Below, one piece after another: positions 24,721 to 28,944 of a stretch of 45,365 nt of DNA (the first letter of the stretch is position 1; every line of letters starts with the position of its first letter). The stretch spans positions 1 to 45,365 of the forward strand of contig NZ_MSCV01000046.1 of the NCBI RefSeq assembly GCF_002005105.1, in the 5' to 3' direction. Made by a program: the position numbers and the translations under genes. Source of the DNA: Methylocaldum sp. 14B. Lineage in GTDB: Bacteria; Pseudomonadota; Gammaproteobacteria; Methylococcales; Methylococcaceae. A model generated the notes under the pieces. It was not told the origin of the DNA. It was given only the letters and a program-made list of their open reading frames with translations, and made no database searches.

Positions 24721-25452
24721 TCATGACCCGGACCCTCCAGAATCCTTGCTCGACTTCTCAAACAAAATACCTCGCTTTGCGTACTTGTCTTGATAGGTAA
24801 CAACAGCTTCCGCCCAGTCCTTTCGCCCCGCCTCCATTTCCGCAACGTAGTACCACCAAAAATCCTCCGTCTTCATTACCGTTTGATACTCTCGAGGTTT
24901 CATCGCAAACACCTGATCTTCCGCACGCGTCTTCGCCTCCGGCGTTTTCACCGAAATATATACCTGAGTATGCGCCAGGCACTCTGTAGCCAACTTGATG
25001 CAATCCAATGCTGCGTTCTCGCGGACCACTGCAACAGGGATTTGTATCGTTGAGGAATCAGGACGAATATCTGTGTACATGGCTGGCTCTCGTCCATACT
25101 TCAAATCAACGATTACTTTGATTGCAGGCATCACAGCTTCACGCGCACTCGGATGGACAAGAAGATAGGCGCTAAATGCCGAGGTAATTTTTTGAGAATG
25201 ATCCTCCATCGTGCGTTTCAACTTGGATGCCACAGCAGAGTCTGACAGATTTCGCCCCTGACCGTCGAAAGCTAGGAAGGCTTTCCCAGTTTCTTCGATC
25301 GACGCGACAGCCAGAAAATACGCTCTAGCGAAGCAACCGTGTTTGTAAAGGATCAAAGCCTCAGAAACGAGTTCCCTAGCATTAGCCAACGCGGCAAGGC
25401 TGTAGTCACGAAGGAGTGTGGGCGAAAATTTAATATTCCTGTATTCGCTCAT
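24721..25452 (-). CDS. AbiV-like HEPN abortive-infection protein
   Basis: A 243-residue soluble, mainly helical protein. The N-terminal portion (about 15-60) shows the AbiV-family pattern: repeated alanine/leucine helices, LYKHGCFARAYFLAVASIEE and TGKAF. R80-x4-H85 (RTMEDH) fits the HEPN RNase motif. AbiV proteins abort phage infection, in Lactococcus by blocking translation; homologues are annotated as the AbiV family of defence genes. Here it is single, on the minus strand, between two identical 14-bp palindromic repeats in an island with a phage-type regulator, consistent with an acquired defence cassette. The C-terminal half (YISVKTPEAKTRAEDQVFAM onward) I cannot assign. Phage defence is inference from the family. 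Confidence 0.7.
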   Translation of the reverse strand: MSEYRNIKFSPTLLRDYSLAALANARELVSEALILYKHGCFARAYFLAVASIEETGKAFLAFDGQGRNLSDSAVASKLKRTMEDHSQKITSAFSAYLLVHPSAREAVMPAIKVIVDLKYGREPAMYTDIRPDSSTIQIPVAVVRENAALDCIKLATECLAHTQVYISVKTPEAKTRAEDQVFAMKPREYQTVMKTEDFWWYYVAEMEAGRKDWAEAVVTYQDKYAKRGILFEKSSKDSGGSGS

Positions 25453-25918: not shown

Positions 25919-26245
25919 TTAATTTTGAGTTACGTAACGATTCGACTTCAGGTTGGAAATCTCAAGTCCCGCATCATTCAACAGCTTAATTACATCCGCC
26001 AACTCGCTTTGAACCTGGATCAGTTCCCGCTGCACCGACTCAAGCTCGGCTTTCATCCGCTCAACTTCATGCCCACCAGTCCCCTTCCCTTTTTCGTCAC
26101 GTAACGCCTGTAATTCGGCCTGCCTCTTGGCTCGCCATTCCGCCTGTCGCTGCGCATTGGTTTTTGCTTGACCAGTTGAAGGACGCCCCCGTCGACGTTG
26201 CAAGGGGGCACTTTTAACGGGCTGCTTATCAGTCTGGTCTTTCAT
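25919..26245 (-). CDS. Small basic coiled-coil protein, putative DNA-binding autoregulator
   Basis: A 108-residue protein in two halves. Residues 1-50 are strongly basic with an AT-hook-like RRRGRPSTGQAKTNAQR followed by QAEWRAKRQAELQALRD. Residues 55-95 form an uninterrupted heptad-type coiled coil (MKAELESVQRELIQVQSELA). The layout recalls small plasmid or phage DNA-binding proteins such as KfrA-like regulators, but I cannot name the family. Palindromes based on GTTACGTAAC occur just upstream of the start (26289, 26320, and a shortened GTTACTAACG at 26251), inside the gene (26096, one mismatch) and over its last codons (25930), so it may recognise them. Function is inferred from layout only. 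Confidence 0.55.
   Translation of the reverse strand: MKDQTDKQPVKSAPLQRRRGRPSTGQAKTNAQRQAEWRAKRQAELQALRDEKGKGTGGHEVERMKAELESVQRELIQVQSELADVIKLLNDAGLEISNLKSNRYVTQN
25930..25937. promoter_or_regulatory. TTACGTAA palindrome, site 1
   Basis: Within GTTACGTAACG, lying over the last codons of the coiled-coil gene. One of three exact copies within 400 bases. Confidence 0.5.
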
Positions 26246-26288
26246 TTCTCGTTACTAACGGCATTTAGCGGAGGCAGTTCTATTATAG

Positions 26289-26296
26289 TTACGTAA
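26289..26296. promoter_or_regulatory. TTACGTAA palindrome, site 2
   Basis: Within GTTACGTAACG, 43 bases upstream of the coiled-coil gene's start codon and therefore in its likely promoter. Its centre is 31 bases from the next site, close to three helical turns. Confidence 0.55.
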
Positions 26297-26319
26297 CGAC
26301 TAATTTCAAATATTTTTCA

Positions 26320-26327
26320 TTACGTAA
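26320..26327. promoter_or_regulatory. TTACGTAA palindrome, site 3
   Basis: Within ATTACGTAACA, 31 bases (centre to centre) upstream of site 2, on the same face of the helix. Confidence 0.55.
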
Positions 26328-26570
26328 CACCTATCGTTTACCGCAGTTGCGACGTCGGACAGGAAGAGACGAAATGCGCCGATATCCAGCCCGAGCAGTA
26401 GAACTCGGAGCGTGAAGCCTTGTTGTGACAGCAAGAAAATCGGAGAAACTCCAATGCCAGGAAAAATCCGATCGGGAGCGGAGGAGGCGCCGGTTAAAAC
26501 GTTTTTTAGTGAGAGGGACAGCTTGGATGCTCGAAGCGCGGAACTCCCCCGCAAATCGAGTGGGCGTTCG

Positions 26571-27335
26571 TTATCGGCAAATCCCGATGACGCCACGCTC
26601 CGCAAGCGATCGCAGGATCTCAGCGCCATGGCAGGCTAAAGCTTGAGGATCTGGATGCCCGATTTCCGCTGCCAACTTGAAGAGGCAATCGATCCCCCGC
26701 ATCTCTTCTTCTTGTTGAAGAATCTGCAGGAGCCGGCACGTTACGGGGCTAATTTCCAAGAATTTCACCTTATCGGCACGGTCGCGATACACGGCAAGAC
26801 AAGTGGGCTGGTCCGGTGGTTCGCTCGGCTGCTGCCCCGGGCCGATTTTGTGTACGGGAAATTGGTAAACCAAAGGCCAGGCAAGTTCCGACAGGTAAAA
26901 CGTTTGCTCCAGCGGGTCATCAGCCGAGTCGATATTTCCTTGTGGCACCTCGCCTTCAGCGATGACTAAAGCCAACTCGGTCCACTCGTAATGCGCGAGT
27001 TCCAACAAATATGGCGGATCGCTAGGGCGGCTTATGTATTCATTCTGGAGATGATCCAGAAATTCTTCGGCTATTTCGGCAAAGTACGGCGTTTTACTTC
27101 GATGCCTTGCATAGAACGCCTGAACTAAAGCAAGCCAATCAGTCTTGCTCAAGATACTCTTAAGCACCGGAAAACCGGTTGCTAGAAAGTTCTCGATGTT
27201 GTTGAAGAACAGTTCTCGGTAAACCTTCATCCGTTCCGGCGCGGGTCCGCACGGAGGTGGATTTTGATGTGGTTCACGAATATATGCGGCAAACGCATAT
27301 TGTATCTGTTGGAATGGAGCGATCTCTTTAGCCAT
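26571..27335 (-). CDS. bufC: DUF2063 partner protein of the bufferin enzyme (BufC/HvfC)
   Basis: A 254-residue protein with the DUF2063 N-terminal domain (about 5-100: [35 protein letters not shown] and PVLKSIL) and a C-terminal winged-helix-like domain ([15 protein letters not shown] to [12 protein letters not shown]). In bufferin and HvfABC systems this protein pairs with the DUF692 enzyme and recruits the precursor's signal or leader region. Its start overlaps the end of the DUF692 gene by eight bases, indicating coupled translation. It is the last gene of the operon; no DoxX-type hvfD follows in the window. Confidence 0.85.
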
Positions 27336-28173
27336 AACGCCGAACAGGTTGCGACGATGCAGCCGTCTGAAGCGCTCGAATCCGTTGAACTTCAGAAAGA
27401 AGTTCGGATAAAGGAGGAATGTTGAAATCCCGCTCTAAAAGAGTCGGAAACACGCCGAATTTTTCATAAGCCATGCTCAGCAATCGCCAAACCGGATCTA
27501 TAACCGTCGCGCCATGGGTGTCGACCAGAAAATCAACCGCCTCGACGTAGTGTCCCGCTACATGGGCATAGGCGATGCGATGCGCCGGTATCGCGCTCAA
27601 AAACGCTTCCGCATCGTAGCCGTGGTTAACGCTGTTGACATAAATATTATTGATGTCGAGCAGCAGGTCGCAGTCAGCTTCTTCAAGCACCGCGTTGAGG
27701 AAATCGATTTCTTCGAGCTCTTTGCCCGGTGCGGCGTAATAGGAAATGTTTTCGATCGCTATCCGCCGCTCGAGAATCTCTTGAGTTCTGATGATGCGCT
27801 CAGCTGTGTATTTGACCGCTTCTTCCGTAAATGGAATCGGCATGAGGTCGTACAGATGGCCGTCATCTCCACAGTAACTCAGATGTTCGCTGTACAGGCG
27901 AATATGATGCCGGTCGAGGAAAGTCTTGAGCTCGGTGAGAAATTCTTCGTCAAGCGGCGCAGGACCACCCAGCGACAGGGATAATCCGTGACAGACGAAG
28001 GGAAACCGCTCGGTTAAGGTTCGTAGCTGTTTTCCGAGCTTCCCCCCTATTCTCATCCAATTTTCCGGTGCGATTTCGTAAAAATCGACCGATTCCGGCG
28101 GATGCTCGGTAAGCGGGCCAATGAAGGCCCGCCTAAGACCGAGCCCGGCGCCTTGGATGGCGAAATTCTTCAT
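27328..28173 (-). CDS. bufB: DUF692 multinuclear non-heme iron oxidase (BufB/HvfB)
   Basis: A 281-residue TIM-barrel enzyme of the DUF692/MNIO family. These enzymes bind two or three irons and oxidatively modify cysteines of a precursor peptide, giving oxazolone-thioamide or thiooxazole products in characterised bufferin/HvfA systems. Likely metal ligands, by family pattern, are H62 ([10 protein letters not shown]), E96-H97 (YSEHLSY), E141 (IENISYY), D173 (LLLDINNIY), H204 and H208 (AHVAGHY), D218-H220 (VDTHG) and E247 (LLERDFN). All expected motifs are present, so the enzyme looks active. It lies 30 bases downstream of the precursor gene and overlaps bufC. Confidence 0.9.
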
Positions 28174-28203
28174 GTTCCCCGGAGGGTGGCAACACGAAGT
28201 CGC

Positions 28204-28527
28204 TTATTGTGGTTTCGTTTCCGTGCTGGGAGGCTGCGCTTGATCCGTTTTCATACCTGCACATTTGCCTTCCATTGCTTTTTTCTCCTGCTCCTGGCTT
28301 TGTTTTTTCATGGCGCCGCAATTCATTTCCTGGGATTTCATCATTTGCCCGCCGCATTTCCCCTCGCCGCATACCATTTCTTTTTGCTCCTTGCCGGCCT
28401 CTGCCACCTGCAGATAGCCACTATCCAAGTCTTTAATTCCAAATGGGTTTTCGGACGCATTAGCGACAGCGGACAAGGATGTTACGACAGCGGCTCCCAT
28501 TACGGTTTTTAATACTCTTTTGCTCAT
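28204..28527 (-). CDS. bufA: Exported bufferin/HvfA-type metallophore precursor
   Basis: A 107-residue precursor. Residues 1-24 are a Sec-type signal peptide (MSKRVLKTVMGAAVVTSLSA, then VANA) with predicted cleavage after A24. The mature part starts with NPFGIKDLDSGYLQVAE, the NPF...L..GY..A pattern of this family. It then carries four cysteines (C53, C58, C70, C89), two of them in EGKC motifs (55-58 and 86-89), and about seven methionines. EGKC cysteines are the sites modified by MNIO enzymes in HvfA-type peptides, producing copper-binding groups in the periplasm. AAGAGG precedes the ATG. First gene of bufA-bufB-bufC. Metal specificity is inference. Confidence 0.85.
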   Translation of the reverse strand: MSKRVLKTVMGAAVVTSLSAVANASENPFGIKDLDSGYLQVAEAGKEQKEMVCGEGKCGGQMMKSQEMNCGAMKKQSQEQEKKAMEGKCAGMKTDQAQPPSTETKPQ

Positions 28528-28944
28528 TGCCTCTTATTCCTCTCAATCGATTTCGAATTGTCGAGCGCCACGCGCGCCAAACTGTTAGACATCAGGATTC
28601 AACAAAGCGGCAGGTCATTCTCCAGGACGGCACGTGCCGGGACGATATCTCCGTGTCAGACTTTGTTAAGTCCGTTATTCTCACACAATAAGCGAAAATT
28701 GTGCACTCTATCAGCCCTGAACCGCCGCCTTTTTCCTAAGCTGACGGTGCCAATTGGCCATCACGTTTCTCAGTTGCTGATGAAAATCTCGAAGTAATAA
28801 AGGGAACTGTGGCCGGAATGATATGGTCAGCAACTGAGCATTGAGCTATTCTCTCGATTCCATAATTCTCGATAAAGCAGACGCCTTAAAGAAGTTAAAG
28901 GCGCTTTTTGACAGGTAGACATAAAGACAAGTTCTGGGGCATGT
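28528..28944. other. Intergenic region upstream of bufA
   Basis: About 420 bases that must contain the leftward promoter and any metal-responsive control of the buf operon, and the rightward promoter of the zinc-ribbon gene. I see no convincing -35/-10 pair, Fur, CueR or ECF-type site, and no gene. Confidence 0.4.

Follow-up and report, generated by a model that had tools for sequence, protein, structure and literature searches.

The three-gene cluster at positions 26571-28527 (minus strand) of the 45,365-nt window, by which we mean the whole stretch of Methylocaldum sp. 14B DNA that was analysed, is on its profile matches and active-site residues an HvfABC cluster of the Lys-Cys captophorin type (also called Buf_EGKCG/oxazolin), and it encodes a precursor peptide with a core rich in methionine. 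The operon type is already known; what is unusual is the wealth of methionines placed beside the cysteines, which recurs across methanotroph relatives. We consider it rather likely that the cluster makes an exported thiooxazole peptide whose methionine thioethers aid the binding and buffering of Cu(I) in the periplasm, with copper and the modification itself argued by analogy to characterised relatives.

Results

The genes hvfA (28204..28527, 107 aa), hvfB (27328..28173, 281 aa) and hvfC (26571..27335, 254 aa) are read as open reading frames in tandem on the minus strand, with a 30-nt gap between the first two and an 8-nt overlap between the last two. These three frames and their model matches agree with the order of precursor, DUF692 enzyme and DUF2063 partner given by the first-pass annotation. 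Profile searches of the operon proteins returned PF05114 (E 1.2e-106), PF09836 (1.6e-27) and PF22106 (6.7e-31); the DUF692 (MNIO) enzyme passes the HvfB model NF003818 (439.9 bits against a cut-off of 360), and the DUF2063/NGO1945_C partner (PME1) passes the HvfC model NF050145 (307.2 against 142). HvfC aligns to the structure 3dee (E 1e-8), and HvfB aligns to the solved H. somni protein 3bww (E 2.8e-74), with identity at stretches, including ERD, that presumably hold the metal ligands.

HvfB also contains the motifs GLGLRR and LLERDF, which we take to be the substrate arginine pair and the base aspartate and phenylalanine of the Lys-Cys group; located by motif, they are the equivalents of Arg15/Arg16 and Asp249/Phe250. 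Using family-level group codes (f1, which holds the window's genome, f5, f6 and f8), we found the Arg-Arg and Asp-Phe pairs in 36/37 f1 HvfB sequences, one f1 row being unscored at the Arg pair, and in 74/74 from f8. The BufB-type MNIO paralogue on contig C32 of the same genome, which accompanies a BufA2, has RK and D-D at those positions, and this difference argues that the window locus is of the Lys-Cys type and not a bufferin cluster. In the available part of the work on FonBC, FonB acts on Lys-Cys substrates and its substrate choice depends on Arg15/Arg16 and Phe250; swapping the residue after both cysteines of the two-repeat substrate blocked turnover, with Gly and Ala tolerated, although a foreign frame containing Cys-Tyr did receive one modification (PMC13097082).

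The first-pass annotation had regarded the missing DoxX gene as unusual, a view that did not hold, since its absence is usual in this order: judged by eye and not by a model, no DoxX lies 3' of hvfC in those loci where another ORF follows (18 in f1 and 14 in f8; 17 f1 and 57 f8 loci have none), and the fon cluster, as far as its description was available, also lacks one (PMC13097082). The single DoxX of the window's genome is on contig C1. No transporter or pmo gene was noticed among the operon's neighbours. Across this order, hvfABC repeatedly has an endonuclease III-like gene (nth, by eye) on its upstream side (L011, L012, L013, L014, L017, L022, L030, L031). Elsewhere in the window, 24721-25452 (minus strand) encodes an AbiV-family HEPN abortive-infection protein (TIGR04498, 85.1 over 27; PF18728, 77.7 over 27.1), and four TTACGTAA-type palindromes lie at 25919-26329, within and upstream of a small gene at 25919-26245 (minus strand). 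The window has 10 TTACGTAA-type matches against 1.68 expected, eight of them being those four palindromes counted on both strands, which are perhaps the operator of the small gene itself. A search for RNA elements gave a single match, on a divergent gene, which was rejected (E 0.97, far under the gathering score).

The precursor passes the HvfA-family model NF050137 ‘KCGExKCG_twice’ (22.9 against a cut-off of 19.5) and falls below the stricter HvfA equivalog NF050188 (16.3 against 95); it is a divergent member of the HvfA family and not an HvfA equivalog proper. Comparison with three genomes of the same genus gave dN/dS values of 0.138, 0.079 and 0.053, and hvfA is thus under purifying selection, a real gene despite its short length. 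Its first 24 residues (28456..28527, minus strand, as for all features below) form a predicted Sec signal peptide with an AxA-type site, identified by eye, in line with the export signal claimed earlier. By analogy to HvfA and the bufferins, as treated in the accessible part of PMC13419390, this signal peptide likely doubles as the recognition leader. It is followed by the motif ENPF...SGYLQVAEA (28396..28452), an instance of an NPF...GY pattern found in 169/181 precursors, and by the Met-rich core, residues 50-93 (28249..28380).

The core places each of the four cysteines of the precursor in a common ExxC[G/A] frame: Cys53 in EMVCG (28366..28380), Cys58 in EGKCG (28351..28365), Cys70 in EMNCG (28315..28329) and Cys89 in EGKCA (28258..28272). 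These cysteines are aligned in 21, 34, 34 and 35 of 36 family precursors, respectively, Cys53 being absent from the other 15. The counts of two EGKC motifs and four cysteines reported earlier are correct, though two should not be read as the number of sites; because all four cysteines share the frame, the candidate sites probably number four. All four may be modified. However, in the portion of the FonBC study available, a two-repeat peptide was modified and a one-repeat peptide was left unmodified, and NVCGG, the nearest frame tested to EMVCG and EMNCG, was modified once per two sites (PMC13097082), so that the isolated or EMxC sites of the window peptide may be poorly modified.

The seven methionines of the core stand at positions 51, 62, 63, 68, 73, 85 and 92, and methionine makes up 11.5% of the precursor behind the leader. 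This richness, which the first-pass annotation rightly noted, is not peculiar to the window; it is a lineage trait of the two main Methylococcales families. The median share of methionine in the core is 0.115 in f1 (n=34), 0.121 in f8 (n=64), 0.000 in f6 (n=8, out of 18 genomes) and 0.015 in other named gammaproteobacteria (n=43). Cores with at least 7% methionine make up 34/35 f1 and 64/64 f8 first copies (98/99 over the two main families), 0/8 f6 precursors and 9/49 named loci outside our Methylococcales list, or 8/48 if L139, probably itself a methanotroph, is set aside. These figures derive from loci taken from 37/38 f1 genomes (first copies), 74/77 f8 and 8/18 f6 genomes, some of which yielded no precursor, and from the 58/80 named loci with a precursor of at least 60 aa bearing an NPF/SPF motif; L047, L065, L097, L108, L124, L126 and L204 were dropped from the medians and the shuffles because they had unknown residues, had less than two cysteines in the core or lacked NPF/SPF.

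The methionines are also placed in a particular manner. For f1, a methionine no more than five residues behind the cysteine was counted in 97/121 cases against a shuffled mean of 68.5 (sd 4.7), and for f8 in 364/513 against 263.9 (sd 9.3); the other named loci show no excess (42/297; shuffled 41.8, sd 3.8). Of the 36 family precursors, 32 retain Met63, 34 retain Met68 and 33 retain Met92. Where both HvfABC copies of a genome could be measured, the first was the richer in methionine in 15/15 (medians 0.118 and 0.059), and second-copy and outgroup precursors are usually lower. A general bias towards methionine was considered and rejected, as HvfB contains little methionine in any of the groups (medians 0.007-0.021). 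A quick tree of 132 HvfB rows, which took every second f8 row, places the f1 enzymes together in a single group (SH-aLRT 82); the Met-rich state requires 12 changes on this tree and therefore came or went several times elsewhere. Methionine is not mentioned in the main texts of PMC13097082, PMC12452194, PMC12538549 and PMC13419390.

Used as a query against its own genome (G000, a member of f1), the window precursor found one further place, at 8225-8506 of contig C32 (E 1.2e-13, 55% identity). This second precursor of 98 aa (also L237:1495-1791 and L241:4720-5016) has a signal peptide, the NPF...GY pattern, EMACG and EGKCG, reaches the cut-off of neither HvfA model, and sits in a mercury operon with the order divergent MerR, precursor, 66-aa protein, MerT, MerP, MerA, ORF and second MerA (MerR 154 over 150.85, MerT 152.1 over 150, MerP 138.3 over 92.55, MerA 586.8 and 564.8 over 454.45). 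The gap between merR and the precursor contains TTGACT-N19-TAGCGT with a CCGTA...TACG dyad, which we take to be the mer operator form. A second genome of the same genus (G002; contig C5, L271:5657-5953) matches the C32 mer region at 99.85% identity over 6,830 nt and at 98.2% over a further 3,182, whereas the core hvfABC DNA of the same pair is 80.5% identical; this contrast suggests that the mer operon, precursor included, was probably transferred between species recently.

An HvfA-like gene was found at 2/30 of the MerT loci examined in the order (66/151 genomes having a MerT match) and at 0/29 further MerT loci of the class (78/369 genomes). In an f8 genome (G108; contig C59, L310:5243-7475), merR, merT and merP are followed 787 nt downstream by a different HvfA-like precursor (NF050137, 22.0 over 19.5); the 12 kb taken of this locus showed no HvfB. 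Among plasmids, 4,743 records gave mer matches, but in no case did the match reach 80% coverage of the query. A protein search with the mer-linked precursor found one plasmid, pPALO11, where the match is in an hvfABC-DoxX cluster and not beside mer. Upstream of that cluster (CP075839.1, L279) are a sigma-factor and a zf-HC2 gene.

No MNIO lies close to the mer-linked precursor of C32, BufB being about 34 kb away. The window's genome has two MNIOs, of which the one in the window alone belongs to the Lys-Cys type. If this precursor is modified at all, no enzyme pair of the genome other than the window's HvfBC would match it; maturation in trans may link the two loci. In another genome, G004, the precursor on C38 (L272) and HvfB on C20 (L118) would likewise need maturation in trans. 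The nearest described case is that of MerC-bufferin fusions, as given in part of PMC12452194. In the open-licence literature we found no description of either a Met-tuned methanotroph HvfABC peptide or a mer-linked precursor.

Upstream of hvfA, a ribosome-binding stretch, GAGAGGAATAAGAGG (28530..28544), is recognisable by eye, and a putative sigma-70-like promoter, TGCACA-N17-GAGAAT with TGTG ahead of the -10, lies at 28676..28705. Its TGTGNGAANA part recurs by eye in 20/36 f1 loci, leaving uncounted those matches that resemble coding sequence of the upstream nth, and its TGCACA part recurs in fewer. A putative ECF-type promoter at 28585..28611 (GCCGCTTTG...GTCTAA) is degenerate in the window, where the exact -35 is absent. 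Among relatives, AACTT-N14/15-GTC, a pattern that we take to resemble an ECF sigma promoter, occurs within 300 nt upstream of 34/165 hvfA genes (8/36 in f1, 7/67 in f8, 0/8 in f6, 19/49 named loci and 0/5 in the remaining groups), a 40.8-fold higher rate than over the remaining sequence of these loci (34 matches in 2.02 Mb). The pattern fits the RpoE2 control reported for the Haemophilus influenzae hvf cluster, together with methionine sulfoxide reductase genes, in the part of PMC7907618 at hand, as well as the sigma-factor and zf-HC2 gene pair on pPALO11.

Discussion

Based on these comparisons we can offer a proposal for how the cluster may work. Expression would come probably from the housekeeping-type promoter, joined by a weak promoter of the envelope-stress (ECF) type. 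The precursor would be held, probably at its signal peptide and NPF...GY stretch, by HvfC, which has a RiPP-recognition fold. HvfB, as a diiron MNIO, would oxidise each of the four ExxC[G/A] cysteines to a 5-thiooxazole, with the loss of four hydrogens per site. The Sec pathway would then export the peptide, removing about residues 1-24, and in the periplasm the thiooxazole thiols and neighbouring methionine thioethers could bind and buffer Cu(I). A homologous cluster in Microbulbifer was, in the accessible part of its description, neither expressed under copper nor clearly protective (PMC12538549).

A different emphasis would make this mainly an envelope peptide against thiol or oxidative stress, in which methionine and thiooxazole trap oxidants sacrificially and copper binding is secondary. 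We regard this as unlikely, though it is the best of the alternatives. The ECF-type signal upstream of relatives, the RpoE2 control with methionine sulfoxide reductase genes in H. influenzae (PMC7907618, in part) and the genes preceding the plasmid relative all favour it. However, the exact ECF-type -35 is missing in the window, the HvfA-like precursor in the mer operon of the same genome points to soft metals, and the products characterised to date bind copper according to the available parts of PMC13097082 and PMC12538549.

It appears less likely still that the peptide, beyond buffering excess, provides methanotrophs lacking methanobactin with Cu(I) for particulate methane monooxygenase. The distribution of the cluster lends this idea some weight: HvfB matches with E below 1e-100 are found in 38/38 f1 and 76/77 f8 genomes, matches to PF02461 (the PmoA/AmoA family) in 23/38 and 75/77, and methionine behind cysteine exceeds the shuffled level in two of the three groups that were shuffled, f1 and f8. 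The window's own genome has a PF02461 match on contig C67, supporting the earlier guess of a methanotroph, and no MbnB above the cut-off; no Mbn operons are given for M. capsulatus Bath and M. album BG8 in the part of PMC3621798 available. On the other hand, 7/10 f5 genomes have PF02461 and none of the ten (0/10) has an HvfB match better than 1e-68, let alone below 1e-100, and 12/18 f6 genomes have PF02461 with precursors poor in methionine, so that methionine richness and pMMO are not strictly coupled. Together with the 15/38 f1 genomes without a PF02461 match, these groups weaken any requirement for pMMO, and the link of the operon with methane monooxygenase is a loose one. The characterised relatives are moreover tied to copper excess or oxidative stress, as far as the available text of PMC13097082 goes, and the neighbourhood of the operon offers no noticed transporter or pmo gene.

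Eight of the f5 genomes (L225-L232) have MNIOs with GLGLRK and ERDD instead; by eye, these accompany bufferin-2-like lipoprotein precursors, with a Met-rich linker in 5/8. Identical precursors are shared between f1 and ‘Candidatus Methylumidiphilus’ (L013, L135), between f8 and a Methylococcales sponge symbiont (L084, L149), and between f6 and Cycloclasticus (L091, L156).

The label of bufferin used in the first-pass annotation is very improbable for this locus. The enzyme superfamily and the type of partner are common to both systems, but the enzyme scores 273.2 against the cut-off of 310 of the BufB model NF050167, and the search of the precursor against bufferin families that had been proposed gave no BufA match, the HvfA-family model being passed instead. 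The genome's BufA2BC cluster is on contig C32, with BufA2 at 93.5 over 60 and BufB at 391.4 over 310. Least credible of all is a spurious or decaying precursor ORF with enzymes acting elsewhere, as the short protein of odd composition and the failed HvfA equivalog model might suggest, given a dN/dS of 0.05-0.14 and cysteine and methionine columns kept across 36 family precursors.

With the HvfABC reading in place, the closest known system is Fontiphorin, FonABC of Fontimonas thermophila, which in the available text shares the precursor, an Arg-Arg/Asp-Phe MNIO, PME1, the lack of DoxX and EGKCG frames; the Fon precursor has seven modified sites, whereas the window peptide has four candidate sites (two EGKC and two EMxC) and seven core methionines (PMC13097082). 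The oxazolin/HvfABC system of H. influenzae is alike in enzyme and partner families, Sec signal and ExxCG sites, but its HvfA has three AEGKCGEGKCG motifs and its operon a DoxX-like gene (PMC13419390 and PMC7907618, each in part); compared with it, the window precursor has fewer sites and a Met-rich core. The genome's own Bufferin 2 (BufA2BC, contig C32, L001) likewise combines an MNIO and partner with a Cys-rich precursor bearing a signal peptide, and differs in its BufA2-type precursor, its Arg-Lys/Asp-Asp enzyme and a cation-efflux gene between precursor and enzyme. Methanobactin (MbnABC) has the MNIO superfamily and copper in common; in contrast to it, the window has a precursor with a Sec signal and a DUF2063 partner, and the genome's scores to the MbnB model TIGR04159 (40.1 and 39.9 against a cut-off of 325) led us to reject methanobactin as an identity.

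The accessible part of PMC3621798 treats copper handling in methanotrophs lacking methanobactin as an open question. A Met-tuned MNIO peptide that is present almost throughout two methanotroph families is a concrete and testable candidate for that role. A wider view, which we put forward as speculative and on balance doubtful, is that gammaproteobacterial methanotrophs remade a captophorin into a Met-assisted Cu(I) carrier or storage peptide, a counterpart of methanobactin, and that the same HvfBC matures a mobile mer-operon precursor, which would bring thiooxazole peptides into mercury detoxification. The mer-linked precursor may matter more than the window locus itself: it suggests that several precursors could depend on one maturation pair, and that mercury may be among the targets of thiooxazole peptides.
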